Below are positions 6,740-24,672 of a stretch of 35,106 nucleotides of DNA, piece after piece. The notes under the pieces are model-generated. The model did no database searches, had not been told where the DNA came from, and was given only the letters and a program-made list of their open reading frames with translations. A program made the translations under genes and the position numbers. Position 1 is the first letter of the stretch. Each line of letters begins with the position of its first letter. The DNA is from Alicyclobacillaceae bacterium (lineage in GTDB: Bacteria > Bacillota > Bacilli > Alicyclobacillales > Alicyclobacillaceae), in the NCBI GenBank assembly GCA_019683615.1, contig JADGIC010000007.1, positions 1 through 35,106 of the forward strand. Direction: 5' to 3'.

Positions 6740-7516
6740 ATGGACTGGAAGGTTTCGGTCGTCGGTTTCGTGGTGGGTGTCTTGATCGGATTGACCGGCA
6801 TGGGCGGCGGCACCGTCATGACGCCCTTGATGATTTTCGTGTTCCACATGCACCCCGCGTTGGCGGTGGGCACAGATTTGGTATACTCCTCGCTCACCAA
6901 AATGGCCGGCGCCATCCAGCATATCCGGCAACGGACCGTCGATTTCCGGGCGCTGAAATTCCTCGCCATTGGCACTGTGCCAGGCGCGCTTGGGGGCTCC
7001 CTGCTCGTTGGGTTGCTGGAAAGGCACCTGCCGATGCAGCACTTTAACACCGTCGTGGGGCGGGCGCTTGGTGCCGTGTACATCCTGGTGATTGCCTCGA
7101 TGGTATGGCGCTGGTGGGCAGCCCGGCGGGGCGGCCGCCGCAAACCGGAAGGCGCAGTGCCTTTGCCGCGCCTTGGCTTGGTCGCGCTTGGCCTGGTCGC
7201 CGGTTTCCTGGTCGGATTGACATCGGTCGGAAGCGGGACCCTGTACATTGCGGTGCTCGCTCTCATTTACCCCATCGCCAGCGCGCGGATGGTCGGCACT
7301 GACATCGTCGTGGGCGTTTTGGTGACCGGCGTGGCCGGGCTCACGCACATGGCGTTTGGCAACGTCGATCTGCGGATGGTGCTGAGCCTGTTGGTGGGCT
7401 CCATCCCTGGTATCCTGCTTGGCAGCAAGGTCACCGTGCGGCTGCCTGAGCCGGCGGTGCGCGTCGGCCTGATGGCGATGCTGTGCTGGTCCAGCTGGAA
7501 CCTGCTGCTCCGCTGA
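6740..7516 (+). CDS. TauE/SafE family sulfite/sulfonate-type membrane transporter
   Basis: This 258-aa integral membrane protein has about eight segments in two repeated halves, as is usual for TauE/SafE. Each half carries the glycine-rich family signature: [22 protein letters not shown] near 10-31 and [21 protein letters not shown] near 151-171. The family moves small organic or inorganic sulfur anions. Because ATP sulfurylase follows 134 bp downstream on the same strand, sulfate uptake or sulfite export is the likely role here; direction and substrate are inferred. The ATG at 6740 has GGGGGACAG upstream. Confidence 0.88.
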
Positions 7517-7563
7517 ATGAACAGCCTGTTAGGTGCAACCGGTCGCTATTGACCGCACACGGG

Positions 7564-7585
7564 CCGGCCGCAGGGCAGCGGCCGG
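7564..7585 (+). other. Strong hairpin between the TauE gene and sat
   Basis: CCGGCCGC (7564-7571) and GCGGCCGG (7578-7585) make a perfect 8-bp GC stem with a six-base loop. No T-run follows, so it is more likely an mRNA-processing or partial-attenuation element than a full terminator. It lies 66 bases before the sat start. Confidence 0.5.
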
Positions 7586-7650
7586 GGGCAGGCGGCCCCA
7601 GCCGCGCCGGACCGGAAGCGGCGGAACATCACTGCAACGGAGGAATCGAG

Positions 7651-8826
7651 ATGGGCACACTCATCACCCCGCATGGCGGGACGCTGGTACAACGCGTACT
7701 CTCGGGGCGCGAGCGCCAAGAGGCCCTCGCCGAGGCGCGCAGCCTGCGCCAGATTGAACTGTCCGGCTGGTCCTTGTCCGACCTGGAGCTGATTGCCACC
7801 GGGGCGTTCTCGCCGCTCACCGGCTTCATGGGCCAAGCCGACTGGGAGAGCGTCGTCGAGACGATGCACCTGTCCACCGGCGAGGTGTGGAGCATCCCCA
7901 TCACGCTCCCGGTGCCGGAGTCACTCGCCAAGAGCCTGAAAGCGGATGAACGCGTGGCCCTGGTGGGGCAGGACGGCGTGGTGTACGGCGTCATCGAAGT
8001 CCGGGAGGTGTACTGGTACGACCAGCGGCGCGAGGCGGAAGCGGTCTACCGCACGACCGATGAGGCGCACCCGGGCGTGAAGAAGCTGTTCGAGCGCCCG
8101 CCGTACGCGGTGGCGGGTCCGGTGTGGCTGCTGAACCGCCGGGACCCGGGCGAATTCGCGGAGTTTTACTTTGATCCGGCGGAGATCCGCGCCGAATTCG
8201 AACGGCGCGGCTGGCGCACCGTGGTGGGCTTCCAGACGCGCAATCCGGTGCACCGCGCACACGAATACATCCAGAAGTGCGCGCTGGAAATTGTCGACGG
8301 CCTGCTGTTGAATCCTTTGGTTGGCGAGACGAAGGCGGACGACATCCCTGCTAGCGTCCGGATGCGCAGCTACCAGGTGTTGCTGCAGCACTACTACCGT
8401 CCGGAGCGGGTGTTCCTCGCCGTCTACCCGGCCGCCATGCGTTACGCCGGTCCGCGCGAGGCGGTGCTGCACGCCATCGTGCGCAAAAACTACGGCTGCA
8501 CGCACTTCATCGTCGGCCGCGATCACGCCGGCGTTGGCAACTACTACGGGACGTACGACGCCCAAAAGATCTTCTCCAACTTCACGCACGAGGAACTGGG
8601 GATTCAGCCCCTGTTCTTCGAGAACAGCTTCTACTGCGAGAAGTGCGACGGCATGGCGTCGGAGAAGACCTGTCCGCACTCGGAAGAACACCGCTACATC
8701 CTGTCGGGTACGAAGGTCCGCGCGATTCTGCGCAGCGGCCAGCGGCCGTCGCCCAAATTCACGCGGCCCGAGGTCGCCGACGTGTTGGTGCAGGGACTGG
8801 CCGAGAGCGAACCGGTCACGGGCTGA
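7651..8826 (+). CDS. sat: Sulfate adenylyltransferase (ATP sulfurylase)
   Basis: This cytosolic enzyme makes adenosine 5'-phosphosulfate and pyrophosphate from ATP and sulfate, the first step of sulfate activation. The 391-aa product is a stand-alone homo-oligomeric type without a fused APS kinase. The catalytic motifs are intact: [10 protein letters not shown] at 195-204 and GRDHAGVG at 289-296. A C329-x2-C332-x8-C341 cluster followed by histidines resembles the zinc site of thermophilic ATP sulfurylases. The ATG at 7651 is fixed by GGAGGAATCGAG. Longer frames upstream run through the GC-rich leader and are not credible. No APS kinase or reductase gene is in the window. Confidence 0.96.
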
Positions 8827-11479: not shown

Positions 11480-12889
11480 TTACCAGAGAACGACTGCGAG
11501 CACCGTGCTGGCCACCAAGCCCATGATAACCGGGATGAAGTTTTTCTTGGCCAAATCCAACGCGTTCACACCGGCGATACCGGCGACAGCGACCAGCGTC
11601 GACCAGGCAATGAGAGTGCCGCCGCCGGTCCACACGGAGCCCATCTGGCCCACGGCGCTGAGCATCGACACGTACCCGACGTTGTGGCCGCCCAGCGCGG
11701 CTGCTGTCGCGCCGACCAGCGGCAGCCCGGCAAACCCGGAGCCGTCCAGACCGGTGATCATGCCGAGAATCAGCACGCCGAACGCGGCCAGCGCACTGCC
11801 CGGTGGCAGGATGTGGCCAAGCTTGACAGCGGCGTCAAACAGGAAGCCAGGCGCCCCTTGACCGAGGATGGCCGAGGAGCCGTCCGAACTGCCGAGGAAG
11901 AAGAACCCGGCAATCGGAATCACAGGACCCATTGCGCGGAAGGCGAACAGGAAACCGTCCACCAGGAAATCGGAGGTCGCCTCGAACGCCTCCAGTTTTG
12001 GCCCGCCGCGAGCCATGCTGATGATCATCAGCAGCAGGCCGCCCATGCCGCCCAGCAGCGCTGTCGCGTCACCGCCCTTGAGACCCTGCGTGATCATTGC
12101 GATGATGACCACCAACAGGAGCACGGGAATCAGGATGGCGACGAGGCCAGCCTTCCTCGACGACGCCGCGTGTGCGTGTTCGAGTGTGGCACCCACTTCT
12201 TCTTGCGCCGACAGCATGCCGGCCACTCGCATCCGCTCTTCCTCGGACTGCCGTGCGAACGGCACATCCTCTTTGCGCTGCATGACGTATCCGATACCCA
12301 GGGCGATCACGCCCGTCACAATCGTCAGCAGTCCGCCTTTCGGAAGCACCGTTGTAATCGGAATGCCTGCGGCTGTCGCCGTGATCTTCGGTGCCCCTTG
12401 AATTACGATGTCGCCCGCCAACGCCATGCCCTGGCCGGCCATGGCGATGGCCATGGCAGCCGTCATCGGGCTGAGGCCAACCCGGACCGCGGCCGGAATC
12501 AACAAGGCACCCACCAACGGCAGCGCGGGTGTCGGCCAGAAGAACAGCGAGATCAGGAACGTCGCCAATACCAAGATGACATACGCAAAGAACGGGTTGA
12601 TCATCAGCCGCTGAATCGGCCGGATCATCACTTGGTCGGCTTTGATGGAGCTGGCCGCTTTCAACATCGCCACCATGACAGAAATCAGCAGGAATACGTT
12701 AAACAATTGCGTGGCAGCATACAAATCAGCGTTGAACAAGGCCTGAATACCGGTGACGATGGAGCCTTTGTAAGCCCAGCCCACCAATACGGTGAAGACC
12801 ATGCTCGGCAACACGATGTTTTTGCGGAAGATCATCGTGGCCACGATGAACAGTGCGCCGATCAGATAGATCCAGTGCGCTAAGGTCAA
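11480..12889 (-). CDS. Polytopic membrane transporter, substrate unknown
   Basis: I recognise an integral membrane carrier (469 aa, about 11-12 hydrophobic segments) but not its substrate. The layout, with two halves joined by a charged loop (about residues 180-225), paired glycine-rich stretches such as MITGLDGSGFAGLPLVGA, and a WPTPALPLVGALLIP hairpin, resembles the ion-transporter (DASS/GntP-like) superfamily that carries organic acids. The TTG at 12889 is preferred for its GGAGGGGG site 8 bases upstream; an ATG at 12925 has no ribosome site. It lies 139 bp downstream of hprK on the same strand, which hints at carbon-source control, but this is inference. Confidence 0.7.
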   Translation of the reverse strand: MTLAHWIYLIGALFIVATMIFRKNIVLPSMVFTVLVGWAYKGSIVTGIQALFNADLYAATQLFNVFLLISVMVAMLKAASSIKADQVMIRPIQRLMINPFFAYVILVLATFLISLFFWPTPALPLVGALLIPAAVRVGLSPMTAAMAIAMAGQGMALAGDIVIQGAPKITATAAGIPITTVLPKGGLLTIVTGVIALGIGYVMQRKEDVPFARQSEEERMRVAGMLSAQEEVGATLEHAHAASSRKAGLVAILIPVLLLVVIIAMITQGLKGGDATALLGGMGGLLLMIISMARGGPKLEAFEATSDFLVDGFLFAFRAMGPVIPIAGFFFLGSSDGSSAILGQGAPGFLFDAAVKLGHILPPGSALAAFGVLILGMITGLDGSGFAGLPLVGATAAALGGHNVGYVSMLSAVGQMGSVWTGGGTLIAWSTLVAVAGIAGVNALDLAKKNFIPVIMGLVASTVLAVVLW

Positions 12890-13028
12890 GTTCCGAACCC
12901 CCTCCGGGTCTGGCTGTCGGATCATACAAAAGATCGTTTGGTTGGCGGACGATGTGCGAAGCAAACAACATCCTGTTGCCGGCGGTGACATCCCCCCTTT
13001 CGATACCCGGCTGGTTCGCCGCGGTGCC

Positions 13029-13937
13029 TCAGCGAGGAGCGCGGACTCGGCTGAACAAGTCGTGTTTGGCGTTGTAGCCGGTCGCCTGCAGGCGATGGTT
13101 TTTTGCCGCAACCTGCACGATTTCTGCAATGTCGCGCCCGGGCTTCACCGGTATCGTGATTTTGGGCACCGGTATGCCGAGGTAGGACACCGTTTGATCC
13201 TCCAGGCCGAGAGCGTCGTAATCGGTGCGATCGACCCACGGTACCAGTTCCACTTCCAGGTTGATCTCGGCTGATTCCCGGATAGAGCCAATCCCGTACA
13301 GTTCCCGCACGTTCAACAGCCCTGCCCCGCGAATCGACAGAAAGTGTTCATTGATGGGGCTGGCGGACGCCAACAGACGCGACCCCACCCGGCGGACCAC
13401 AATCATGTCGTCGGCGACGAACAGATGGCCCCTCTCAATCAGCGACAGCGCGACTTCGCTCTTGCCGATGCCGCTCACACCACGCAGTATGATGCCGACG
13501 CCAAACAGCTCCACCATCGTGCCGTGCAGGCCAATTTCCGGCGCCAGCCGTTCCAACAGGTAAGTGTGCAGGCCTAGCGAAAACTCGGTGGTGTCCCGGT
13601 TTGTCCGCAAAAGCGGCGTGCCGTACGCGTTGCACAATTCGATGAACAGCTGCAGCGTTCGGATTCCTTCTGTGAAGATCACGGCGGGGACGCTGCGTTC
13701 AATCAACCGTTGGATGGCTTGGTAACGGTCGTTGCTGGACAGCCGCACCAGGTAAGCGGTTTCTTTTTTGCCAAGAAGCTGAATCTTAAAAGGATCAAAG
13801 TAATCAAAATATCCAATGAGTTCTAACCCGGGTCGGTTCACCCCGGCCTGTCGCACCACGGTGTCCAAACCGCTGGAACCTGCCAACACTTCCAGTCCAA
13901 ACGCGCGAACGATGTCGGCAACCCTGAGCGGTTCCAT
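13029..13937 (-). CDS. hprK: HPr kinase/phosphorylase
   Basis: This cytosolic bifunctional enzyme phosphorylates and dephosphorylates Ser46 of HPr/Crh and so sets carbon catabolite repression in Bacillota. The 302-aa protein has the usual two-domain layout. The N-terminal domain is about 1-130. Catalytic H139 is in GLHGT, Walker A GVSGIGKS at 153-160, acidic D176/D177 in VADDM, the signature IRGAGLLNVRELYG near 202-215, and the C-terminal KPGRDIAEIVQVAAKN segment. The ATG at 13937 has CGGGGAG upstream. It is second in a two-gene unit 21 bases behind the HPr-like gene. The usual lgt or pgpP neighbours are absent. Confidence 0.95.
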   Translation of the reverse strand: MEPLRVADIVRAFGLEVLAGSSGLDTVVRQAGVNRPGLELIGYFDYFDPFKIQLLGKKETAYLVRLSSNDRYQAIQRLIERSVPAVIFTEGIRTLQLFIELCNAYGTPLLRTNRDTTEFSLGLHTYLLERLAPEIGLHGTMVELFGVGIILRGVSGIGKSEVALSLIERGHLFVADDMIVVRRVGSRLLASASPINEHFLSIRGAGLLNVRELYGIGSIRESAEINLEVELVPWVDRTDYDALGLEDQTVSYLGIPVPKITIPVKPGRDIAEIVQVAAKNHRLQATGYNAKHDLFSRVRAPR

Positions 13938-13958: not shown

Positions 13959-14249
13959 TCACGATTCCTGGAGAAACCGGATGATGGCGTCGCGTGCCGC
14001 CAAACCGTCTTCCCCGTAGGTGAGAATTTCTACGCTATCGCCTTGCTGCAGGTTGAGAGAGAGCATCCCCAATACGCTCTTGGCGTTGGCTTCCCGAGTC
14101 AGACCGCCGACCGGGCCTTCACCCTCAAAGAAGTGTTTTTTGAACTGAATCTCGGCCCCGTACTGCGCGGCGATGCGGACAATCTGCAGAATCTGCTCGG
14201 GCGCCAAATCGCGCGCTACGGACATGACTTCGGAATACAGGTGTTCCAT
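13959..14249 (-). CDS. HPr-like (Crh-like) regulatory protein lacking the active-site histidine
   Basis: This 96-aa protein has the HPr fold, shown by AKSVLGMLSLNLQQGDSVEI and the final helix EDGLAARDAIIRFL. Ser58 in NAKSVLGML aligns with regulatory Ser46, the HprK target. Where HPr has G-I-His15-A-R-P, this protein reads D14-L-A16-P-E-Q, so the histidine that takes phosphate from Enzyme I is Ala, and Arg17 and Pro18 are lost too. About 11 extra residues (roughly 38-49) sit before the serine. It therefore cannot act in the PTS. It is best seen as a Crh-type co-regulator or a still more divergent HprK substrate. AAGGAGGT 8 bases before ATG 14249 is an excellent ribosome site. It precedes hprK in an apparent operon. 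Confidence 0.85.
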   Translation of the reverse strand: MEHLYSEVMSVARDLAPEQILQIVRIAAQYGAEIQFKKHFFEGEGPVGGLTREANAKSVLGMLSLNLQQGDSVEILTYGEDGLAARDAIIRFLQES

Positions 14250-14389: not shown

Positions 14390-15103
14390 TCAATCAGCCA
14401 GCTCCGGCCGCTCCTGTCGAACCCGGGCTTCCGAGCGGGCACGGCTGCGCAGCCACACCAACGCCATCGCCAACACCGCCACCGTGACGCCCAGTGGAAT
14501 GATCCAGTCGTCCCCTGGGAACGACGCCCAACGGGCGAACCAGTTGTCCGAAACCAGGATGTGGCCCGCGGTCCAAGACAGGATGGCCGTTCCGGCCCAC
14601 AGCAGGATGGGAAATCGGTCAAGGAGTGCGACGACGCCGCGGCTGCCGAGAAGGATGATCGGAATGCTGATGAGCAATCCGACAGCGATGCTGGCAAATC
14701 GCCCGTTGGCTATCGCCGCGATCGCCACCACGTTGTCCAGGCTCATGATGAGGTCTGCTAAAACAATCCAAAGGATGATTTTGACCATTGAGTGGTGTTC
14801 AGGGCGCTTCCGGGTGGATTCCGCTTCCTGTTTGCTGATCAACAGCTTCAGGGCGATCCACGCCAGAAACACGGCCCCGGCCGTCTTGACGCCCGGGATT
14901 CGCATAACCCAGTTGGCAATGCCAGTCAGCGCCACCAACAGGATGACGAGAATCAGGCTGCCCCAGACCATGGCGTGCCGCCGGTGACGTTCCTCCAAAG
15001 GCCGGATGATCATGGCAAGAATCACGGCGTTGTCTGCGCTCAGCAGGGCATTGACAAATATGATGTTGAGCGTTGAAAGCATGATGGCTGTCACGGCGGT
15101 CAC
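14390..15103 (-). CDS. TerC family integral membrane protein (YjbE-like)
   Basis: This is a 237-aa membrane protein with about seven segments. Both TerC signatures are present: NALLSADNAVILAM (D24) and DLIMSLDNVVAIAA (D117, D123), whose acidic residues lie in the membrane. Bacillus relatives (MeeF/MeeY, YjbE) help export manganese or metallate secreted enzymes; tellurium resistance is not implied. The GTG at 15103 is the outermost start, with only a weak GAAGATGG upstream; a GTG at 15094 behind GGGTGA is an alternative. A 140-bp gap separates it from the HPr-like gene. Its upstream region holds a GTATACC motif shared with the accessory cluster. Confidence 0.85.
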   Translation of the reverse strand: MTAVTAIMLSTLNIIFVNALLSADNAVILAMIIRPLEERHRRHAMVWGSLILVILLVALTGIANWVMRIPGVKTAGAVFLAWIALKLLISKQEAESTRKRPEHHSMVKIILWIVLADLIMSLDNVVAIAAIANGRFASIAVGLLISIPIILLGSRGVVALLDRFPILLWAGTAILSWTAGHILVSDNWFARWASFPGDDWIIPLGVTVAVLAMALVWLRSRARSEARVRQERPELAD

Positions 15104-15128: not shown

Positions 15129-15164
15129 ATGCAGTTTATGTACACTGCATGTTGTATACCAAAA
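15129..15164. promoter_or_regulatory. Candidate operator between TerC gene and aspartate dehydrogenase gene
   Basis: Two elements adjoin. ATGCAGT (15129-15135) and ACTGCAT (15144-15150) are perfect 7-bp inverted arms around eight bases. TTGTATACCAAAA follows at 15152-15164 with the same GTATACCAAA core as two other intergenic sites (17845-17856, 19895-19907). The left half of the 17-bp palindrome is poorly kept, so this may be a weaker or half site. No clear promoter could be fixed for either neighbour. Confidence 0.5.
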
Positions 15165-15392: not shown

Positions 15393-16181
15393 GTGAATAC
15401 TGGCATCATTGGCTACGGAGCGATCGGCCGCGAGGTGGCTGCACGTCTGCGGCGGGGCGATGTTCCCGGCGCCCGGTTGGGGGGCGTGCTCGTCCGGAAG
15501 CCATCGCCGGGAATGAGTGCGCCGGATTTCACCGACGATTTGAACGAGTTTTTGTCCTGGGGGTTGGACCTGGTGGTCGAGGCTGCCGGTCAGGACGCGC
15601 TGCGGGAATACGCCTGCCCGGTGCTGGAGCGGGGTGTTTCGCTGGCGGTCGTCAGCGTCGGAGCGCTGACGGACGACGGGCTGGCAAGGGATCTGCGGCG
15701 GTTGGCGCAGGAAACAGGGGCGAAGGTGTACTTTCCGTCCTGCGCGATCGCCGGGCTGGACCGGATTGCAGCGGCGCGCGAAGGGCGCTTGGACGCCGTC
15801 AAGCTGACCACGCGCAAGCCGGTGGGCGCCTGGTACGGGACGGTCGCGGAGGAAAAGTACAATCTGGCGCAGCTGACGGAACCGGTTCTTCTGTACACCG
15901 GCACCGCGCGTGAGGCGGCCTGCTTGTTTCCCGAGAGTGTCAACGTATCTGCCGCGCTGGCGCTGGCCGGGATTGGTATGGACCGAACGCAGGTCGACGT
16001 ATGGATTGACCCGACGCTGACGGCCAACGTTCACCAGGTCGAAGTGACGGGGGAGTTTGGGCGATTCGCGTTTGAAGTGCAAAACCGGCCTTCAAAAAAC
16101 CCGAAGACCGGAGTCATTGTGGCGATGAGCGTGGTCAAGCTGATCCGCAACCTGGCGGGGCCGTTTGTCATCGGAGTGTGA
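15393..16181 (+). CDS. nadX: L-aspartate dehydrogenase family protein
   Basis: This 262-aa cytosolic NAD(P)-dependent enzyme is predicted to interconvert L-aspartate and iminoaspartate/oxaloacetate. It has a Rossmann start GIIGYGAIGREVA (4-16), the family segments VEAAGQDALREYA and SCAIAGLDRIAAAREG, the conserved TTRKPVGAW, and the C-terminal NVHQVEVTGEFGRF with the catalytic-site histidine region. The GTG at 15393 has AAAGGGG about 11 bases upstream. In other organisms the enzyme feeds NAD synthesis, but no nadA or nadC is nearby. The divergent GTATACC site and the convergent permease, with a 14-bp overlap at the 3' ends, suggest it may belong to the accessory regulon. Substrate specificity within DUF108 proteins is not always aspartate. 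Confidence 0.85.
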   Translation: MNTGIIGYGAIGREVAARLRRGDVPGARLGGVLVRKPSPGMSAPDFTDDLNEFLSWGLDLVVEAAGQDALREYACPVLERGVSLAVVSVGALTDDGLARDLRRLAQETGAKVYFPSCAIAGLDRIAAAREGRLDAVKLTTRKPVGAWYGTVAEEKYNLAQLTEPVLLYTGTAREAACLFPESVNVSAALALAGIGMDRTQVDVWIDPTLTANVHQVEVTGEFGRFAFEVQNRPSKNPKTGVIVAMSVVKLIRNLAGPFVIGV

Positions 16182-17682
16182 CGGACCATTGCCCGGCGGC
16201 GGCGACGGCAGCCACAAACAACAGAAACAGGATGGAAAAGGCGGCGTTCCAGCGGATGATTTCGGACGGCTGAACGCCGCTGACGCTGGCGGCCACGTTC
16301 GCCGTCGCGTTGAACGGGCTGAGCACAAAACTGGTCACGCCACCGCCGAACAGCCCGATGGCGAGCCATATGGGTGACACGTGCAGAACCGATGGGGTCA
16401 GAGCGGCACCCAGGAGGGAAATCGTCACGACCGGGTGCAGCCCCACCAGCGACAGCACTACGGTCACGATCGGCACCAGGGCTACGAATCCGGTCGGACC
16501 GATTGCCCAGGAGGCGTGGATGAAGGCGGTGTCAAAGGCGTGAACGTACGTCGATTGGTGCAGGCATTGGACAAAGTACCCCGCAGCAGTGAATACGGAG
16601 AACGTGTTGTGGAGCGCCTGCACGGACTTGCGCTGTTGCGCCAAGCGTTTCCAAAAGATTGGCTGTCGCCCCAGCAGCAGGCTCCACAGCCAGGCAAACG
16701 GCATCGCCAAGATCGCAATCACCTCAATCATCGCCCATCCGGTGAGCGACTGCAGCGACTGCATGGCGGCGAAAAACAACACGACGGCCAGACCGATATG
16801 CCACAGTTTCCCGGACCGCGCCGGTACCGCGGTGCCGGTAGCGGCAGCGTTACCGTGGATGGGCCGCCCGAACTCGGAAAGTGCGTCTGCGGACGGCGCT
16901 GGGGCTGCGGATTGCTGCCGGGCTGCGGGCGGCACGGCCGACGGCGGGCCGCTGGCCGCGGTTGCGGCCGCTTCCTTGGCCGCCTGGTTGGACCCGGTGA
17001 TCCGGAATATGGCGACGCCGATGGCGAGGCCGGCGAAGCTGAGGGCAAGCGTGACAGGTACCGCTTGCGCCCAGCGGATACCGGTGATGTCCACTATCGC
17101 TGCGACGACGGCCGCAATTGGGCTCCAAGCGAGCGGCATCGCGTAACCGACGACAATGCTGGACATGAGAAAGCGGGTTGGTTCCGGAATTCGCCGCTGC
17201 TCCACCAAGCGCGCCACCGATTGGTACATCATCGGGATGGCAGCAATGTTCATGAGGCTGGCCAGCAGGTACGACAAACCGGCAATCGTCAAATACAGGC
17301 GGCGAGGTGACAGATGCCGCCCCTCGAACAGACGCTCCACCGCCTGTTGGTAGTCCCCGGCGACGATGGGGATGGCGAGAATCGGTACCACGGAAAACAG
17401 GCTGAGAAGGTTCAGCATGCTGCCAAACGACTGGATGACGGACCGCGGTCCGGGGTGGCCTGTCCACACAAGCGCCGTCCCGGCCGCTAAAAACAGGAAT
17501 GTCAAGCCTTTCGAGACAGCGGACGCTGCCGGCCAAGCGGTGAGCAGCGCAGCGATGGACAGGTATGGCAGGCTTTCCTGCAAGGGGGGCCACGGGATGA
17601 TTACCGAGATCAGGTACACGAACACGGCGGCCAAGAAAACCCAGCCACGCACACCTGCGATGTGTTTGAACAGCGCTGCCAT
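16168..17682 (-). CDS. Large polytopic permease, substrate unknown, divergent from the accessory cluster
   Basis: This is a 504-aa membrane carrier with about 12 segments and a long Ala/Pro-rich hydrophilic loop near the middle (about residues 230-290). I do not recognise the exact family. The two-half layout and the VVGYAMPLAWSPIAAVVAAIVDITG and FGGGVTSFVLSPFNATANVA segments resemble ion-transporter-superfamily carriers for organic anions. The ATG at 17682 (MAALFKHI) has GGGGGA upstream and begins just before the first segment; a GTG at 17751 would add an unlikely leader. It is driven from the intergenic region that also starts the ChrA-like gene, over a shared GTATACC operator. It is therefore the best candidate for the uptake system of the cluster's substrate. 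It is convergent with nadX. Confidence 0.75.
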   Translation of the reverse strand: MAALFKHIAGVRGWVFLAAVFVYLISVIIPWPPLQESLPYLSIAALLTAWPAASAVSKGLTFLFLAAGTALVWTGHPGPRSVIQSFGSMLNLLSLFSVVPILAIPIVAGDYQQAVERLFEGRHLSPRRLYLTIAGLSYLLASLMNIAAIPMMYQSVARLVEQRRIPEPTRFLMSSIVVGYAMPLAWSPIAAVVAAIVDITGIRWAQAVPVTLALSFAGLAIGVAIFRITGSNQAAKEAAATAASGPPSAVPPAARQQSAAPAPSADALSEFGRPIHGNAAATGTAVPARSGKLWHIGLAVVLFFAAMQSLQSLTGWAMIEVIAILAMPFAWLWSLLLGRQPIFWKRLAQQRKSVQALHNTFSVFTAAGYFVQCLHQSTYVHAFDTAFIHASWAIGPTGFVALVPIVTVVLSLVGLHPVVTISLLGAALTPSVLHVSPIWLAIGLFGGGVTSFVLSPFNATANVAASVSGVQPSEIIRWNAAFSILFLLFVAAVAAAGQWSVTLR

Positions 17683-17818
17683 ATCACAGTCCCCCAGTCC
17701 TTCCCATATCGAAGGCATCCGCATCGAGAAGGAGCCCGCATGGCCGGGCACGCCCGCCGCACAGGGGCTTGTCTCCTGAGACTACAAAATCTTCTTAGAG
17801 CCAAACGCGTCAGCGGCT

Positions 17819-17871
17819 TTAACAGCCCTCAGTTATGTTGTATATTGTATACCAAAGTCGTGGTTGGTCAA
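17819..17871. promoter_or_regulatory. Overlapping divergent promoters with a GTATACC operator
   Basis: Plus strand: TTAACA (17819-17824), 16 bases, TATATT (17841-17846). Minus strand: TTGACC (17871-17866), 16 bases, TACAAT (17849-17844). The operator-like palindrome TTGTATATTGTATACCA (17838-17854, 8-1-8, six of eight pairs) covers both -10 elements. A repressor bound here would shut off the permease and the ChrA-like gene together. Confidence 0.6.
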
Positions 17872-17928
17872 TGACGACTTTCAATGTTCAGGAATATTAT
17901 CCGTATATTTGAAAGAAGGAGACAGCGT

Positions 17929-18603
17929 GTGAGCCGTGGGCGCACCTTGTGGGAGATTTCGATGGCCATGCTGCGGACGGGGATCCTCGGATACGGAGGG
18001 GGCCCGTCGACGATTCCGCTGTTTCGGTATGAAGCGGTGGAGCGCTACCGCTGGGTTGACAACGAGGAATTCGGCCAAATTTTGGCAGTGGCAAACACGC
18101 TCCCGGGGCCCATCGCGACGAAGATGGCCGCGTACCTTGGGTACGAACAGGCTGGCCTGATGGGAGCGGTGACAGCGGTCGTCGTCCACATTTTGCCGAC
18201 GTCGCTGGCCATGGTGGTCTTGTTTGGCGCGCTGGGGCTGCTGCGTCATTCCCCCGTTGTCAAGGGTGTCATCGAGGCCGTGGACCCGGTGGTGGCCGTG
18301 ATGTTGGGTGTGATGGCATACGAATTTTTGAGCAAGACCTGGAAGGGCCTGGGGAAATGGGTTGGAACCGCATTCGCGGCGGTGGCCTTTCTGTTGCTGG
18401 TGGTTTTTCAGCTGAATCCAGGGGTCGTCGTGCTGGTGTTTTTGGCGTATGGCCTGGTCCACTACCGGTGGGCGGACGCGTTGCGGCGGCGCAGCGCCGG
18501 GCAGCCGGACACGGGTGCGGCGGGAGCTGACGCGGCGCGGGGCGACGCGGGTCGGCAGACGTCTGCCACGCATCAGCAAACATCGATCACACATCAACCG
18601 TAG
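17929..18603 (+). CDS. ChrA-family half-size membrane transporter (first copy)
   Basis: This 224-aa protein consists of one CHR domain with about five to six membrane segments and a hydrophilic C-terminal tail rich in Gln, Thr and Ala. Family motifs are LGYGGGPSTIPLFRYEAV near the start and VANTLPGPIATKMAAYLGYEQAGLMGA after the first segment. Half-size ChrA proteins normally work as hetero-pairs. The only partner in sight is the second copy at 24.1-24.7 kb, at the far end of the cluster. The start is placed at GTG 17929 because AAAGAAGGAGA lies 6 bases upstream; an ATG at 17884 in the same frame lacks a ribosome site. Chromate is the founding substrate, but here an oxyanion or organic anion from the pathway is more likely. 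Confidence 0.82.
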   Translation: MSRGRTLWEISMAMLRTGILGYGGGPSTIPLFRYEAVERYRWVDNEEFGQILAVANTLPGPIATKMAAYLGYEQAGLMGAVTAVVVHILPTSLAMVVLFGALGLLRHSPVVKGVIEAVDPVVAVMLGVMAYEFLSKTWKGLGKWVGTAFAAVAFLLLVVFQLNPGVVVLVFLAYGLVHYRWADALRRRSAGQPDTGAAGADAARGDAGRQTSATHQQTSITHQP

Positions 18604-18624
18604 TCGATGAAGGGAGGCAGTGTT

Positions 18625-18957
18625 GTGATCAAAGTCACCCTGCGGGGTCCAAATGGAACGTTTGAGCAAGAAGTTCCGGAAAACAGCAACTTGGTCGTGC
18701 TGGCGGGGTTGAAGAAGTTTCCCGGGCTGCGCTACTCCTGCGGCATGGGGCGGTGCGGGAAGTGCGCCTCCCGGGTGGTGCGAGGCGCCGAGCATTTGCC
18801 ACCGCCGGACTGGAAAGAAGAGCGAGTACTGGGAGAGGACAAGCTCCAAGAAGGGTATCGGCTGATGTGTCAATTGTATTTGACTCACGATCTTGAAATT
18901 GCGCAGGACAAGGTCCCCATCGTTCCCGCTTACCGGCGCGTGCGCCAGAAGGTCTGA
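18625..18957 (+). CDS. [2Fe-2S] ferredoxin (first copy)
   Basis: This is a 110-aa soluble electron carrier with the plant-type ferredoxin fold. The cluster ligands are C39-x4-C44-x2-C47 (SCGMGRCGKC) and C82 (LMCQL). The GTG at 18625 has AAGGGAGG 8 bases upstream; an in-frame ATG at 18607 overlaps that site and is rejected. It starts 21 bases after the ChrA-like gene. Together with the second ferredoxin, which has its cysteines at almost identical positions, it is a likely electron donor to the downstream diiron oxygenase. No dedicated ferredoxin reductase is encoded here, so a housekeeping reductase would be needed. Confidence 0.9.
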   Translation: MIKVTLRGPNGTFEQEVPENSNLVVLAGLKKFPGLRYSCGMGRCGKCASRVVRGAEHLPPPDWKEERVLGEDKLQEGYRLMCQLYLTHDLEIAQDKVPIVPAYRRVRQKV

Positions 18958-19021
18958 CGTCGGAAGCGTGTGGCAAAATCCCCGTGGGGATCGCGATGTG
19001 GCCGAAAGAGGGTGCTCACAG

Positions 19022-19789
19022 GTGGGATTCGTACTGGCCGAGATGACGTGGCCTGAGGTCAAGGAGGCGCTCCGGCACGTCAAGTTGGCAGTGATACCGT
19101 TGGGGGCGCACGAGCAACACGGTCCACACATCAACGAAAGTTGTGACAACGTCTTGGCGGAACAGTTCGCGCGCCGCTTGGTTGATCGGCTGCATCCGTG
19201 GGCCGTCATGGCGCCGACGATTCCGTTCGGCATCTCGATTCACCACATCCATTTTCCGGGTACCATCACCCTCAGGACGGAAACACTGATCCAGGTCTTG
19301 CGCGATGTGGTGTGGTCGCTCCAGCAACACGGGTTGAACAACTTCTTGATAGTCAACTCGCACGGCGGCAACCAATCCCTGTTGGGGGTGGCGTGCACAC
19401 AGTTGTCCTATGAACTCAAGGCGCGGGTGTGTTACGCCAAGACGACAGCCTCCGCGAAAGAAGCTATCCGGACGCATGTGAAGTCGGCCTTGTTCGGCCA
19501 CAGCTGTGAACGGGAAGTGTCGGAGGCGTTGTACATGGCTCCGCACCTTGTCCGCCAGGACCAGTTGCAGCCCGGCGAGATTGTCGAAGGCAAGTGGCGC
19601 TTGTTGCGGCCGGGCCAGCCGATTCAGGGATTCTACTTCTACGAAGAGATGACCGCGAACGGGTGTATCGGCAACGGTCCGGCGGGATCGTTCGAAGCGG
19701 GGGCAGCCATCGTCGAGGAAGCGCTGGACCGCGTGGAAGAGGCTGCACGCCAGTTGTTCGACTTGCCCAAACGGGAAGAAGGCAATTGA
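19022..19789 (+). CDS. Creatininase-family metalloamidohydrolase
   Basis: This 255-aa cytosolic enzyme belongs to the creatininase/MftE/ArfB family. Members hydrolyse cyclic or linear amides, formamides and, in IolN, a carbon-carbon bond, using a two-metal centre. The ligands expected for the family are present: E31 and H33 in GAHEQHGPH, D42 in SCDNV, H114 in VNSHGGNQ and E163 in HSCEREVSEAL. The GTG at 19022 has AGAGGGTG about 7 bases upstream; a GTG at 18998 is a weaker alternative. It follows the ferredoxin by 64 bases in the same orientation. Creatinine itself is unlikely as substrate since no creatinase or sarcosine genes are present. An amide ring-opening or deformylation step is a reasonable guess. 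Confidence 0.85.
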   Translation: MGFVLAEMTWPEVKEALRHVKLAVIPLGAHEQHGPHINESCDNVLAEQFARRLVDRLHPWAVMAPTIPFGISIHHIHFPGTITLRTETLIQVLRDVVWSLQQHGLNNFLIVNSHGGNQSLLGVACTQLSYELKARVCYAKTTASAKEAIRTHVKSALFGHSCEREVSEALYMAPHLVRQDQLQPGEIVEGKWRLLRPGQPIQGFYFYEEMTANGCIGNGPAGSFEAGAAIVEEALDRVEEAARQLFDLPKREEGN

Positions 19790-19808
19790 TACTAGGCAGA
19801 ATTGTCAG

Positions 19809-19837
19809 TTGACAGGCTTGTCCGACCCCGTTATCAT
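19809..19837 (+). promoter_or_regulatory. Near-consensus promoter of the diiron-oxygenase gene
   Basis: Perfect TTGACA (19809-19814), a 17-base spacer and TATCAT (19832-19837). The start point would be near 19844. It lets the second half of the cluster be transcribed separately from the ChrA/ferredoxin/creatininase part. Confidence 0.7.
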
Positions 19838-19853
19838 GAATCTCAACGATGAA

Positions 19854-19904
19854 TGGTATACAGAATGCCAAATGTCGACGGCGCTATTGGTGTACTGTAT
19901 ACCA
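19854..19904. promoter_or_regulatory. Paired GTATAC operators in the 5' leader
   Basis: TGGTATACAG (19854-19863) and its exact inverse CTGTATACCA (19895-19904) have centres 41 bp apart, about four helical turns. The right copy lies in a 17-bp near-palindrome TGGTGTACTGTATACCA (19888-19904, 8-1-8, one mismatch). The core resembles UxuR/ExuR-type GntR/FCD sites. Both lie just downstream of the predicted start point, consistent with repression by roadblock or looping. Confidence 0.65.
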
Positions 19905-19938
19905 AAATCGTAGGTATCACCCCGAGGAGGCTGTGAAC

Positions 19939-20658
19939 ATGGCTGAGCTGTTGTCCAGGGAAGAGTTCCGTAAGGCGATGGAAGAGGCCATCAAGGGCCG
20001 GCATTCGAAAGCCTCGCCGTTCAGCGAGGCGTGGGCGGCCGGCAAGTTGAAGAGGGAACACTTTGCGCGTTGGGCGGAAAACCACTACCACTACGTCGGA
20101 CCGTTCGCTGACTACCTGGCCTACATCTACGCCAACATTCCTGACAAATTCACGGACGCGAAAGATTTCATCCTGCAGAACATGTACGAAGAAGAAATCG
20201 CGGACGTCCGTCACACCGACCTGCTCATCCGGTTTGCGGAAGCGTGCGGCACGACGGCGGCGCGCGTGACTGACGAGCGCTTGATGCTGCCGACCACCCG
20301 CGGCCTGCAGAGCTGGTGCTACGCGGTCGCCATCCGTGAGCACTTCGTCGTCGCGACGGCGGCGTTGATCGTCGGCCTGGAGTCGCAGGTGCCGGAGATC
20401 TACCGCAAGCAGTTGCCTCCGCTGCTGGAGAAGTACCACTTCACGAAGGAAGAGGTCGAGTTCTTTGACCTGCACATCGTGTCGGACGAGATCCATGGCG
20501 AGCGCGGCTACCAGATTGTGCTCGACTACGCGAACACGCCGGAGTTGCAGCAGCGCTGCCTGGAAGTGATCCGCGACGGCGCCGAGATGCGCTGGATGTA
20601 TATGGATGGCCTCTACCGCGCGTACGTGGAGAAGGACTTGGCGGCTGTCAGCGCGTAA
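19939..20658 (+). CDS. PqqC/CADD-like diiron oxygenase (HDO superfamily)
   Basis: This 239-aa all-helical protein is of the PqqC/TenA/haem-oxygenase-like fold. The six residues that bind two irons in CADD/UndA-type enzymes are all present with the family spacing: E85 and H92 in YEEEIADVRH, E148 in VGLESQ, and H179, D183 and H186 in DLHIVSDEIHGERG. It is therefore probably an O2-activating diiron oxidase/oxygenase, not the cofactor-free PqqC. ATG 19939 has GAGGAGG 8 bases upstream. It has its own promoter and paired operators and is followed by an aldehyde dehydrogenase. Ferredoxins on both sides could supply electrons. Its substrate is unknown. Annotation as 'PqqC' would mislead, as no other pqq gene is present. 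Confidence 0.85.
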   Translation: MAELLSREEFRKAMEEAIKGRHSKASPFSEAWAAGKLKREHFARWAENHYHYVGPFADYLAYIYANIPDKFTDAKDFILQNMYEEEIADVRHTDLLIRFAEACGTTAARVTDERLMLPTTRGLQSWCYAVAIREHFVVATAALIVGLESQVPEIYRKQLPPLLEKYHFTKEEVEFFDLHIVSDEIHGERGYQIVLDYANTPELQQRCLEVIRDGAEMRWMYMDGLYRAYVEKDLAAVSA

Positions 20659-20693
20659 GCTGACGCGTCAGTTCAAAGCCGGACGCGGGACGG

Positions 20694-20719
20694 CAGGCGG
20701 CGGGCGTTTCCGCCGCCTG
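20694..20719 (+). other. Intercistronic hairpin before the aldehyde dehydrogenase gene
   Basis: CAGGCGGCGG (20694-20703) and CCGCCGCCTG (20710-20719) form a perfect 10-bp stem with the loop GCGTTT. A 12-bp palindrome CTGACGCGTCAG (20660-20671) lies just before it. With no T-run it is more likely a processing or stability element between the two genes than a terminator. Confidence 0.5.
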
Positions 20720-20755
20720 TCTGCACCGGTTGGCCGGAAAGGAAAGGGGAAGCCG

Positions 20756-22222
20756 ATGGCAACAAGGAGCGAAACCGTCGTCTTTCACGCCTGGGTTGCC
20801 GGTGAGTGGCGGCAATCCTCGGCTGGCGATCACTTTGACAGCGTCAACCCGGCGGATACGTCGGACGTCGTGGCGCGCTTTCCGAATCTGACGACGGACG
20901 ACGCGGCGCAGGCCATCGAGGCGGCTGCGCGGGCGTTCCCGAAGTGGGCGGCGACGGCTCCCGGCAAGCGCGCCGAAATTCTCTGGAAGGCTGCCTCCCT
21001 GTTGGACGAGCGGCGGGCCCAATACGCCGTGGAGCTGACCCGGGAGGAAGGAAAGGTGTTGTCGGCGGCCCAGGCCGAGGTCAAGCGTGCGGCTGACACC
21101 CTGCGCTTTTACGCGCAGGAAGGCCTGTCGTTGGCAGGCGAGACGTTCACGACGGACGACGCGGGGAGTCTGGTTTTTACCCGGCGCGAACCGTTGGGTG
21201 TGGTGACGGCCATCACCCCGTGGAATTTCCCGATTTCCATCCCGGCTCGCAAGATTGCGCCGGCGCTGGTGACGGGGAATACGGTGGTGTTCAAGCCTGC
21301 GTCCGACACGCCGCTGATTGCGTTGCGGTTGGTGGAATGCTTGATTGAGGCAGGGCTTCCGGCCGGCGTCATCAATCTGGTGACCGGCAGCGCGTCGCGC
21401 GTCGGGGACGTCATCGTCAGCCACCCGGAGGTGCGTGCGGTGACGTTCACCGGGTCGACCGGCGTGGGTGAGACCATCCACCGCAAGGTGTCGCTGACGA
21501 CGCGGGTCCAGATGGAGCTGGGCGGCAAGAATCCGATTCTCGTCATGGACGACGCCGACCTCAAGAAAGCCGTCGAGTTGACCATCAAGGGCGGCTTCGA
21601 ATTGACTGGCCAAGCATGCACCGGTACGAGCCGCGCCATCGTCATGCGGTCGGCGTACGACGCGTATGTCGAGGCGCTCGTTGACGCGACGGCGAGGTTG
21701 CGGATCGGCAGTGGCTTGGAACCGGGTGTGGAAATCGGTCCGTTGGCCAACCAGAGCCAGTTGCGGACGGTGTTGGAGTACGTTGCGCTCGGCCAGGAAG
21801 AAGGTGCCCGCTTGGTATACGGCGGCGAGCAGCTGACCGGCCCGGGTTACGACCGCGGCTACTTCGTGCGGCCTGCGGTGTTCGCCGATGTGAAGCCGAC
21901 CATGCGCATCGCGCAAGAAGAAATCTTCGGCCCCGTGATTGCAGTGATTCCGGTAGATTCGTTCGAAGAGGCGCTGAACCTGGCGAACGGTGTCGAGTAC
22001 GGCCTGTCGGCGTCCATCGTGACTCGCGACATCGAACGGGCACACCGCTTCGTCAAAGGGATTCAAGCCGGTACGGTGAAAGTCAACCGCACGACGACCG
22101 GCAACCTGATTCAGGCCCCGTTCGGCGGCTTGAAGCGCTCCAGCGCTGCCACGTTCCGCGAGTCTGGCCGGGTTGGTCTTGAGTTTTTCACCCAATTGAA
22201 GACGGTGTATTACGGTTTTTGA
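20756..22222 (+). CDS. Aldehyde dehydrogenase, alpha-ketoglutarate semialdehyde dehydrogenase-like
   Basis: This 488-aa soluble NAD(P)-dependent enzyme oxidises an aldehyde to its acid. Catalytic residues are in place: N157 in PWNFP, K180 in VVFKPAS, the glycine motif FTGSTGVG near 231-238, E254 in MELGGKNP and nucleophile C288 in GQACTGTSR. The C-terminal FGGLKRSSAATFRESG segment and overall pattern fit the 2,5-dioxovalerate (alpha-ketoglutarate semialdehyde) and succinate-semialdehyde group, so a carboxylated semialdehyde is a reasonable substrate guess. ATG 20756 has AAAGGGGAAG upstream. It lies 97 bp behind the diiron oxygenase and probably oxidises an aldehyde formed in that pathway. Confidence 0.9.
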   Translation: MATRSETVVFHAWVAGEWRQSSAGDHFDSVNPADTSDVVARFPNLTTDDAAQAIEAAARAFPKWAATAPGKRAEILWKAASLLDERRAQYAVELTREEGKVLSAAQAEVKRAADTLRFYAQEGLSLAGETFTTDDAGSLVFTRREPLGVVTAITPWNFPISIPARKIAPALVTGNTVVFKPASDTPLIALRLVECLIEAGLPAGVINLVTGSASRVGDVIVSHPEVRAVTFTGSTGVGETIHRKVSLTTRVQMELGGKNPILVMDDADLKKAVELTIKGGFELTGQACTGTSRAIVMRSAYDAYVEALVDATARLRIGSGLEPGVEIGPLANQSQLRTVLEYVALGQEEGARLVYGGEQLTGPGYDRGYFVRPAVFADVKPTMRIAQEEIFGPVIAVIPVDSFEEALNLANGVEYGLSASIVTRDIERAHRFVKGIQAGTVKVNRTTTGNLIQAPFGGLKRSSAATFRESGRVGLEFFTQLKTVYYGF

Positions 22223-22300
22223 CGATTCTGCCCGGCGCGGCGGGCGAGACAGCCAGCGCGGGGTTTGCGAACGTGTCACATCATGGTGGGGGGACTGGGC

Positions 22301-22780
22301 ATGAAGCAGGCGGTCATGCTGGAACTGGCGGAGGCGCGCGTACTGATCCAGGCAGCGATTGCAAAGGCGAAAGAGATCAACGTGGCCGAGACGATCGCGG
22401 TGGTCGACGCTGGCGGACACCTGATTGCTCTTGAGCGGATGGACGGTGCTCGCATCACCGGTCCGGAGATTGCGATTGCGAAGGCGTTTACGGCGGCCGG
22501 CCACAAGCGGTCGACGCATCTGTTCAACACTCCGCCCAACGGGCCTGCGCTGCCAAACAACGAGGCATACGGCATCCAGCTGATGTTCCCTGGCCGGTTC
22601 GCCGTGTTCGTCGGCGGATTCCCGGTGGTGGTCAACGGTGAAGTCGTGGGTGGCATCGGCATCAGCGGCGGCAACGGCGCCCAGGATACGGCCGTCGGGG
22701 TAGCGGCTCTGGAGGCGCTGGCCCGCCATCTGGAACCGCAAGGGTTGCAGGTGCTGGCACAAGCCGATATCAAGCTGTGA
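22301..22780 (+). CDS. GlcG/HbpS-family (DUF336) protein
   Basis: This 159-aa protein belongs to the GlcG/HbpS/PduO-C family, recognised by the N-terminal ARVLIQAAIAKAKEINV helix, VVDAGGHLIALERMDGA, and the C-terminal VGGIGISGGNGAQDTAVGVAALEAL. Family members bind haem or corrinoids, or occur without known function in glycolate and aromatic catabolic operons. There is no signal peptide, so it is cytosolic. The ATG at 22301 has GTGGGGGGA about 5 bases upstream. It lies 78 bp after the aldehyde dehydrogenase in the same orientation. It is probably an accessory or cofactor-handling protein of the pathway; no enzyme activity can be assigned. Confidence 0.85.
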   Translation: MKQAVMLELAEARVLIQAAIAKAKEINVAETIAVVDAGGHLIALERMDGARITGPEIAIAKAFTAAGHKRSTHLFNTPPNGPALPNNEAYGIQLMFPGRFAVFVGGFPVVVNGEVVGGIGISGGNGAQDTAVGVAALEALARHLEPQGLQVLAQADIKL

Positions 22781-22834
22781 GCGCCGGAGTGTTGAGTCGC
22801 GCGGGGCGGCGGAACATGGGGAGGAGGGTGTACG

Positions 22835-23212
22835 GTGGCCGGCTATATCTACTTTAAGACGTCTGGCAAACGGATTGAGATTGGACCGGAAGGCGAAGCG
22901 CATGTGCTGCGCACCTCCATCCGGTATGAATGCGACCTGCCGTTCAAGTGTGCGGGCGGCCTTTGCGGGACGTGCAAAATGCACGTGGACGAAGGCATGG
23001 AAAATTTGTCGCCGGTGCGGAAGGCTGAACAAAAACTGTTGGGCGACCTGTTGAATGAGGGATACAGGTTGGGCTGCCAGACGTTCGCCCACGGCGACTG
23101 CACCATTTCGTGGGACCCAGCTCAACAGCAGGGCAAGCCTTTGAAGAAACTGGCAGATTTCTGGGAGAAACACGGAGGTCGAGCGCGACTGTCACCGGTG
23201 GCCGGGGAGTGA
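22835..23212 (+). CDS. [2Fe-2S] ferredoxin (second copy)
   Basis: This is a 125-aa plant-type ferredoxin. Ligands are C39-x4-C44-x2-C47 (KCAGGLCGTC) and C81 (LGCQT), the same positions as in the first ferredoxin to within one residue, with a C-terminal extension of about 30 residues ending in KKLADFWEKHGG. The GTG at 22835 follows GGGGAGGAGGGTG. Two paralogous ferredoxins in one cluster may serve two oxidation steps, or one may be specific to the diiron oxygenase. The stop codon sits in a GGGGAGT-G-ACTCCCC palindrome (23204-23218). Confidence 0.9.
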   Translation: MAGYIYFKTSGKRIEIGPEGEAHVLRTSIRYECDLPFKCAGGLCGTCKMHVDEGMENLSPVRKAEQKLLGDLLNEGYRLGCQTFAHGDCTISWDPAQQQGKPLKKLADFWEKHGGRARLSPVAGE

Positions 23213-23224
23213 CTCCCCCAGCCT

Positions 23225-23266
23225 GCGGAGACGAGTCTTGAAACGCCCCGTCTTCGCTGTTAGTAT
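23225..23266 (+). promoter_or_regulatory. Terminator-like hairpin overlapping the gntR promoter
   Basis: GCGGAGACG (23225-23233) and CGTCTTCGC (23249-23257) form a 9-bp stem with one G-T pair, followed by TGTTAGTATTT. The same bases hold a promoter candidate: TTGAAA (23238-23243), 17 bases, TAGTAT (23261-23266). The regulator can thus be transcribed independently of the pathway genes. Confidence 0.5.
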
Positions 23267-23380
23267 TTAGTAGAACGTAGATTCTGCTTCAGACCGATCC
23301 TTTCGGCTGGGGGAGCCTATTCCCTGAGCCGTGAACGCGGCCGCCGGGGACGGGCGCCAGAGACCGGGAAGTGACAGCGA

Positions 23381-24010
23381 ATGGCGGAAAATCTGACAAT
23401 CCGAGCGGAAGAAGACTTTAGTCCGATAGAGTTGCGCGTGTACCAGATCCTGCGTGAACAGATTCTTTCCGGCGAACTGAAAGCCGGAGAACGCTTGGTG
23501 GAGCGGGAGTTGGCGGACAAATTGCACATCAGCCGCACCCCGGTCCGGGAAGCGTTGCGCAAATTGGATTCCGAAGGACTGATTCGGATCATCCCCCGCA
23601 AGGGCGGGATTGTGGCTGACCTCAGCCAGGATGACATCATTGATATGTTCGAAATACTGGAGAGTTTGGAAACGCTGGCGGTGCGCCAGGCGGCCGCGCG
23701 GATCACGCCCGAACAGCGCAAACTGTTGGAAGACGTCGACGAGACGGACGTCGCGTCGATGATCCGCGCCATCTGCCAGGTGGCGCGCAATCGCCGTCTG
23801 GATGAGATGTTGCGCGGGCTGTTGGACCTGATCCGGGCGAGTGCGCGCATCGGCCGGGAGCGGCCGGGGCGGGCATTTGAGGCCACCCAGGAGCACCGGG
23901 CGATTCTGGAAGCCGTCAAGCAGGGAGACGGGGAGCGGGCGGTCCAATTGGTTCGAGAGCACATCCGCCGCTCGGTTGAGGCGTATCAGTCCCAACTGCG
24001 GTCTCGCTGA
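23381..24010 (+). CDS. GntR-family transcriptional regulator, FCD subgroup
   Basis: This 209-aa regulator has an N-terminal winged helix-turn-helix (about 12-75; LREQILSGELKAGERLVERE and ISRTPVREALRKLDSEGL) and a helical C-terminal FCD effector domain. FCD domains usually bind a metal through an Asp and three His. Here the late histidines are seen in QEHRAIL and VREHIRRS, but the early D-x-x-F-H element reads DVASMIRAI, so the first ligands are lost and the domain is slightly short. The ATG at 23381 has GGGAAGTGA upstream. As the only regulator in the cluster it is the natural reader of the GTATACC sites, which match the known operator style of this subgroup. It probably acts as a repressor released by a pathway intermediate. 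Confidence 0.9.
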   Translation: MAENLTIRAEEDFSPIELRVYQILREQILSGELKAGERLVERELADKLHISRTPVREALRKLDSEGLIRIIPRKGGIVADLSQDDIIDMFEILESLETLAVRQAAARITPEQRKLLEDVDETDVASMIRAICQVARNRRLDEMLRGLLDLIRASARIGRERPGRAFEATQEHRAILEAVKQGDGERAVQLVREHIRRSVEAYQSQLRSR

Positions 24011-24087
24011 GGCCGCGTGCGGGCGGGTTTCCGGCGCGGGCCGCGAGGTGCGGACGCGCCGGTTTTCGTACCGCCTGACGGCGGTTC

Positions 24088-24672
24088 GTGGATCGACAGA
24101 CAGTCCGCGGGGAGGGAATCGCCACGAACTGGATTCATTTGTGGTGGGGATTTTTCATTTCGAACGTGTTGGGGTACGGGGGCGGACCGTCCTCCATCCC
24201 TTTGATGCAAAATGAAATCGTCCAGCACTACCACTGGATGACAAACAGCCAGTTTGCCAACATGTTGGCGTTGGCGAACGCATTGCCCGGACCGATTGCG
24301 ACCAAGATTGCCGCATTCACCGGGTACGGGGTGGGCGGTTGGTTGGGCCTGGTGGTGGCGACGGCGGCGACCGTACTCCCGTCGGCGATGGCGGTGGTGT
24401 TGTTGCTGCGACTGTTGAACCGTTACCGGCAATCGCGCCCGGTTAAGGGAATGACAGCCTTGGTACAACCGGTCATCGCCGTTCTGATGGTAGTGTTGAC
24501 TTGGCAGATTGGCCGCGATTCCGTCAGCGGCGTGGGTTGGATTCAGTCGATGTGCATCGCAGCTGTCGCCTGGTGGGCGATGGAGCGCCGCAAAGTGCAC
24601 CCTGCACTGGTCATTGTTGCAGCGTTCATCTACGGTGGGCTCATTCTCCCGCACTTGCCGCGTTTGGCCTGA
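24088..24672 (+). CDS. ChrA-family half-size membrane transporter (second copy)
   Basis: This is one CHR domain of up to 194 aa with five to six membrane segments, paralogous to the first copy. It has the same VLGYGGGPSSIPLMQNEIV and ALANALPGPIATKIAAFTGYGVGGW signatures but a shorter C-terminus. Together the two may form the hetero-pair typical of short ChrA systems. The start is uncertain. GTG 24088 has only a weak site, while the strong GGGGAGGG (24109-24116) is followed at good spacing by ACG (24124), not ATG/GTG/TTG. The next TTG (24139) is too far in. The gene follows gntR by 77 bases and ends the cluster. Confidence 0.8.
   Translation: MDRQTVRGEGIATNWIHLWWGFFISNVLGYGGGPSSIPLMQNEIVQHYHWMTNSQFANMLALANALPGPIATKIAAFTGYGVGGWLGLVVATAATVLPSAMAVVLLLRLLNRYRQSRPVKGMTALVQPVIAVLMVVLTWQIGRDSVSGVGWIQSMCIAAVAWWAMERRKVHPALVIVAAFIYGGLILPHLPRLA

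Follow-up and report, generated by a model that had tools for sequence, protein, structure and literature searches.

The window analysed here, the whole 35,106-nucleotide stretch at positions 1 to 35,106 of contig JADGIC010000007.1, is part of the 2.4-Mb draft genome of an Alicyclobacillaceae bacterium and contains a gene cluster built around a heme-oxygenase-like diiron oxidase/oxygenase (HDO; 19939-20658, + strand). Accompanying the HDO are genes for a predicted creatininase-fold metallo-amidohydrolase (below, the creatininase), an aldehyde dehydrogenase (ALDH), an HbpS/GlcG-like protein (HbpS), two [2Fe-2S] ferredoxins, a GntR-FCD regulator, an aspartate dehydrogenase (AspDH), permeases and two halves of a CHR transporter. 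We consider it probable that the cluster encodes a GntR-controlled, inducible aerobic pathway for the catabolism of a small nitrogen-containing acid. The gene set and its order, the co-occurrence of the genes, the operators, the metal ligands and the active-site substitutions described below are observations.

The HDO, the core enzyme of the cluster, matches PF14518 (113 bits), and its AlphaFold model (pLDDT 89) has a heme-oxygenase-like fold. The six residues of the 3-His/3-carboxylate diiron set (Glu85, His92, Glu148, His179, Asp183 and His186) are invariant in 37/37 cluster HDOs, bearing out the full ligand set that an earlier note on this DNA had assigned to the protein. The HDO is predicted to bind two metals and to activate O2. 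Its best fold match in the PDB is CADD (TM score 0.91), followed by PqqC; UndA, BesC, HrmI and FlcD were also matched. CADD, the self-sacrificing pABA synthase (TIGR04305), has the closest fold and the same six metal-ligand positions, but its sacrificial Tyr27 is replaced by Ser or Thr and its Lys152 by Gln in 37/37 cluster HDOs. Assignment of the protein as CADD was rejected on these replacements and on its score (93.5 bits, the cut-off being 200). PqqC (TIGR02111) has the fold in common with the HDO at ∼22% identity, but no pqq genes are present in the HDO neighbourhood; assignment as PqqC was also rejected (66.9 bits, the cut-off being 240). PqqC itself functions without metal (PMC13108848).

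When 84,980 species genomes were scanned, 506 HDO relatives were found, of which 80 were kept; neighbourhood counts were taken over 87 loci. The HDO clade has a median identity of 82% across phyla, and in plasmid records the Cupriavidus and Caballeronia HDOs are 71-73% identical whereas the next matches drop to 27%, which gives the orthologue group a sharp boundary. Pseudomonadota were covered through these plasmid records. The clade is found in 20 of the 400 genomes from the window's class. It is rare among sampled Actinomycetota (2/397, one being the centre genome that was picked for having the gene) and Planctomycetota (1/199, the centre genome itself). Carriers include culturable Bacillus relatives and Cupriavidus metallidurans CH34. 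One record titled Chryseobacterium sp. ISL-80 has a cluster that nests among Cytobacillus/Neobacillus in the HDO tree; it is probably mislabelled or contaminated.

The HDO, ALDH and HbpS-like genes travel together in Bacillota, Actinomycetota and Burkholderiales, and the ALDH gene lies immediately 3' of the HDO gene in nearly all Bacillota loci and in all Burkholderiales loci. Across the Bacillota, the loci repeatedly also contain the creatininase, AspDH, the ChrA halves and the two ferredoxins. HDO orthologues (79-85% identity) are present in three further genera of the window's family, and in all three ferredoxin 1, creatininase, HDO, ALDH, HbpS, ferredoxin 2 and GntR genes are closely clustered. 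Of 41 genomes from this family, four have HDO orthologues, and precisely those four also have the creatininase and ALDH; AspDH was found in three of these four and in none of the remaining family genomes. A random pick of four genomes would reproduce the creatininase match to the HDO genomes about once in 100,000 (C(41,4) = 101,270), a figure that ignores relatedness. Ten additional Bacilli loci, with HDO identity down to 62%, each carry creatininase, AspDH, ALDH, HbpS and ferredoxin 2 genes near the HDO gene; one further locus (L114) was excluded from this set because it lies on the same contig as L012. Partner distances correlated with HDO distances at r = 0.74-0.94 for the enzymes, ferredoxins, permeases and a 113-residue companion protein described below, and at r = 0.56 for the ChrA halves. 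Co-occurrence in other genomes had been named beforehand as the observation on which the proposed coherence of the cluster could fail; the genes do co-occur, and the claim was not refuted. Conserved gene order over dozens of genera, exact co-occurrence in the window's family and common operators strongly support it. An accidental cluster is ruled out by the conserved neighbourhood, the phylogenetic profile and the shared operators.

The sequence TTGTATACCAAA is present as an exact match at 15152-15163, between the genes for AspDH and a TerC-family membrane protein, and again at 17845-17856, between the first CHR half (chr1) and permease B; CTGTATACCAAA, with one mismatch to it, lies at 19895-19906 upstream of the HDO operon. 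Allowing two mismatches, five sites occur in the window against 0.36 expected, and 0 of 100 shuffles reached five. With one mismatch or none, five sites were found genome-wide, three of them in the cluster region; the reversed-pattern control gave four. Among the loci, a GntR-type palindrome, TNGTATACNA, precedes the HDO gene in 68/87 (background 9%), the gene for the 113-residue protein in 66/69, permease B in 57/67, ferredoxin 2 in 57/76 and AspDH in 42/52. It is found upstream of the genes downstream of HDO in 1/85 (ALDH) and 0/83 (HbpS) cases, and upstream of chr1 in 2/63. In the ten additional Bacilli loci it precedes HDO in 10/10 and AspDH in 7/10, and none of the control palindromes was present at either gene. 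Because the operator precedes them, AspDH joins the unit and TerC probably does. The GntR-FCD protein (23381-24010, + strand), assigned from family scores and the operator pattern, is presumed to be the binder of these shared operators.

Plant-type ferredoxins accompany the HDO in Bacillota. In the window these are ferredoxin 1 (18625-18957, + strand; PF00111), whose reading frame opens at 18607 with a probable GTG start at 18625, and ferredoxin 2 (22835-23212, + strand; PF00111), a candidate electron donor. Their cysteine motifs are retained in 73/73 and 72/76 cases, respectively, and a YumC-type reductase is present in 10 loci. Actinomycetota encode a Rieske ferredoxin and a BphA4-type reductase immediately after the HDO, and Burkholderiales have a BenC-type reductase within the HDO operon. 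That the HDO is accompanied by different [2Fe-2S] electron chains in three phyla is the strongest argument for an oxygenase served by an electron chain of its own; most likely, then, the enzyme is a multi-component oxygenase, its partners being linked to it by genomic association. A comparable pairing is MboA-MboB, a mangotoxin HDO with a dedicated flavin/Fe2S2 reductase that was proposed as the first dedicated redox partner (PMC13185094). The Burkholderiales cluster resembles it in combining an HDO with its own reductase; MboA, however, targets a peptide in biosynthesis, whereas in the cluster the HDO is surrounded by ALDH, AspDH and permease genes in a GntR regulon.

The creatininase (19022-19789, + strand) scores 202 bits with the broad family PF02633 and falls below the cut-offs for creatininase (89.5 versus 235), MftE (108.8 versus 172) and IolN (61.9 versus 245). 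Its Glu74, His76, Asp85, His157, Glu206 and Glu208 (numbering of the open reading frame 18893-19789) are near-invariant in 71 loci, and a search of the plasmid collection returned only distant relatives (≤43% identity) in unrelated contexts. For the ALDH (20756-22222, + strand; Pfam and NCBIfam family scores), the nearest curated models are of dicarboxylic-semialdehyde dehydrogenases, namely alpha-ketoglutaric semialdehyde dehydrogenase (578 versus 770) and 2,5-dioxovalerate dehydrogenase (589 versus 750), both below cut-off. AspDH (15393-16181, + strand), of the NadX/DUF108 type, scores above the cut-off of the subfamily model NF009828 (236 versus 177 bits) and just misses equivalog-level models such as NadX (195.5 versus 206.6).

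The hydrolase position varies with lineage: a creatininase in Bacillota, a GGT-family enzyme in Actinomycetota and relatives, and an alpha/beta hydrolase in Caballeronia, which seem to fill one niche. Creatininase and GGT genes were never found in one locus, and AspDH and an OCD-family protein are likewise mutually exclusive; these exclusions are weaker than the counts suggest because all follow phyla. The OCD family includes iminosuccinate reductase (6rqa), which makes aspartate/iminosuccinate the inferred common denominator. RidA is encoded in 36 loci, in both phyla; RidA proteins hydrolyse imines or enamines. Hydroxypyruvate isomerase (6 loci) and malic enzyme (2 loci) were not used as evidence.

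On the catabolic reading, the substrate would be taken up by a permease, and the HDO, with electrons from NAD(P)H delivered through [2Fe-2S] carriers, would activate O2 and attack the substrate to give an aldehyde or N-acyl semialdehyde. The ALDH would oxidise the aldehyde, and the creatininase, or elsewhere the GGT-family enzyme or alpha/beta hydrolase, would cut the amide. The resulting imine or aspartate would be handled by RidA in other genomes and by AspDH, or elsewhere the OCD-family enzyme, to yield oxaloacetate and ammonia. We infer the reaction order, the end product and the catabolic direction of this scheme. Its general chemistry of oxidative attack, amide hydrolysis and aldehyde oxidation, already proposed in the earlier note, fits the gene set, the reactions themselves being predicted.

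Our leading guess at the substrate, a possible but doubtful one, is an N-heteroaromatic carboxylate whose ring would be opened by the HDO and ferredoxin chain; the N-acyl semialdehyde would then pass through ALDH and deacylation by the creatininase or GGT enzyme to iminosuccinate/aspartate. Candidates may include pyrrole-2-carboxylate, picolinate and spore dipicolinate. The guess is made by analogy with uracil and pyridine pathways and with a flavin-enzyme counterpart in Arthrobacter. The Rut (uracil) and Pyr (pyridine) pathways each bring together, in a single cluster, an oxygenase, an amide hydrolase, enamine deamination and a semialdehyde step; they use flavin monooxygenases, and we know of no HDO, AspDH or CHR protein in either. 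On plasmid p1 of Arthrobacter sulfonylureivorans, a permease A homologue lies beside a luciferase-type monooxygenase, flavin reductase, amidase, ALDH and Rid protein. This set is only suggestive of a flavin-based counterpart pathway: its ALDH is only ∼41% identical to the cluster ALDH, and its amidase and Rid protein are not close either. In 34 loci (30 between L017 and L088, plus L116-L119) a paralogue of the YyaC spore protease is encoded within or next to the cluster, at two different positions in separate lineages, and a higher-scoring canonical copy is present elsewhere in the tested genomes. The paralogue weakly favours a spore-related compound such as dipicolinate.

Several points weigh against the catabolic reading. 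HbpS, the ChrA halves and the 113-residue protein have no explained role in the scheme. Amide hydrolysis is not proven to be universal, because the creatininase is absent in Burkholderiales and Actinomycetota, and the hydrolase and dehydrogenase swaps may reflect different substrates rather than equivalent roles. One of the four HDO genomes in the window's family (G036) yielded no AspDH, and the distance correlations are partly due to common species ancestry.

Among other explanations, it is unlikely that the cluster serves the biosynthesis of a cofactor or natural product. The HDO resembles PqqC and CADD and the creatininase resembles MftE, so that the nearest families of both enzymes are biosynthetic, and validated HDOs have been described in biosynthesis (PMC13108848). 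The two proteins nevertheless score far under the curated CADD, PqqC and MftE cut-offs; no recurrent precursor peptide, radical SAM enzyme, ligase or carrier protein was found in the 87 loci; and the permeases, ALDH, AspDH and GntR-FCD regulator are catabolic in style. Protection against chromate, metals or oxidants by the ChrA halves, TerC, HbpS and HDO is quite unlikely: although the ChrA halves score above chromate-efflux cut-offs and TerC adjoins the cluster in five loci, Actinomycetota, Burkholderiales and several Bacilli keep the enzymes without the ChrA halves, these halves track the HDO least, and the ALDH, amide hydrolase and AspDH would be left without a role.

Organosulfonate breakdown, in which the HDO would free sulfite and an aldehyde, appears very improbable. 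SsuA/NMT1-type ABC transporters adjoin the cluster in four loci (L008, L111, L112 and L120), and CHR proteins can transport oxyanions, both of which speak for it; NMT1-type transporters, however, also carry other small molecules, a sulfite oxidase and a TauE neighbour were found in one locus each, and the amide hydrolase is given no role. We regard haem degradation for iron, which the fold name of the HDO and the 'haem-degrading' family name of its HbpS partner would favour, as extremely improbable, since the HDO fits the CADD diiron ligand pattern, its nearest folds are diiron or PqqC-type, no recurrent haem uptake genes were found in the neighbourhoods, and the ALDH and AspDH are left unexplained.

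The earlier note had listed nine same-strand genes and a divergent permease as a single unit at 17682-24672. All ten lie where it placed them, with family scores confirming their names. The genes not detailed above are the ChrB-type CHR half, chr1 (17884-18603, + strand; NCBIfam NF053759, 271 bits against a cut-off of 250), the HbpS/GlcG-like protein (22265-22780, + strand; PF03928), kept alongside HDO and ALDH in three phyla, the ChrA-type CHR half (24088-24672, + strand; NF053760, 292 bits against 250) and permease B (16168-17682, - strand), which is encoded in 67/87 loci and matched no Pfam or NCBIfam model. The coherence of the unit stands and its extent does not. About 150 bp containing an operator separates the creatininase from the HDO gene, so the row comprises at least two transcription units and not one operon, and it reaches left to AspDH and, judging from relatives, to permease A (about 11480-12925, - strand), a reading frame assigned to the unit from relatives' loci. 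The inventory was correct as far as it went; most of the mechanistic information lies in what it missed, namely AspDH, permease A, RidA as a partner and the exchange of electron-transfer proteins between lineages. Permease A, present in 81/87 loci, is the transporter most widely linked to the HDO.

TerC (14390-15103, - strand), a probable regulon member, has the operator 49 bp upstream and also adjoins the cluster in L006, L038, L082 and L088. TerC and permease A are separated by genes on their own strand for an HPr-like protein (13959-14249, - strand), Crh-like in having a Ser46-type motif and apparently no His15 region, and an HPr kinase (13029-13937, - strand). The stretch from TerC through permease A is possibly one transcription unit starting at the operator at 15152. 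The 113-residue protein is encoded in 69 loci (e.g., L009:11078-11428, - strand, and L019:238-579, - strand), divergent from ferredoxin 1 in most; it was not found in the window. Sequence searches against Pfam, NCBIfam and the PDB gave no match for it, none of its fold matches was significant, and in the plasmid collection it is present only in records that also carry the cluster HDO. A NIF3-like gene recurs near the cluster (L012, L014, L017, L032, L076, L082, L088, L111 and L120), and an MpsC-like gene adjoins in several loci. Elsewhere in the window, the genes at 735-8826 appear to have no connection with the cluster; they encode cytochrome bd oxidase, two pyridoxal phosphate (PLP) enzymes of Cys/Met metabolism, ATP sulfurylase and a TauE-family exporter.

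The statement in the earlier note that no known pathway has this combination of genes holds, in that no characterised operon of like composition was found in the literature or curated family libraries. Literature searches on the combination, on catabolic HDOs and on dipicolinate or pyrrole-2-carboxylate clusters gave nothing relevant, with subscription journals mostly uncovered, so that a prior report is possible. About a dozen of the more than 10,000 members of the HDO superfamily have been validated, and a 2026 review presents all of these from the side of biosynthesis (PMC13108848). As biosynthesis is the only angle from which that review treats the family, an HDO regulon devoted to catabolism would be new. 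Many soil bacteria share this group of roughly a dozen genes under joint control, centred on an unusual iron enzyme, and the group looks built for the breakdown of a small nitrogen-containing compound. The unusually conserved HDO clade, with its own electron chain and regulon, is a workable system in which a catabolic HDO, and a nutrient pathway of soil bacteria that has gone unrecognised, could be studied, and the operator permits a direct screen for the inducer.

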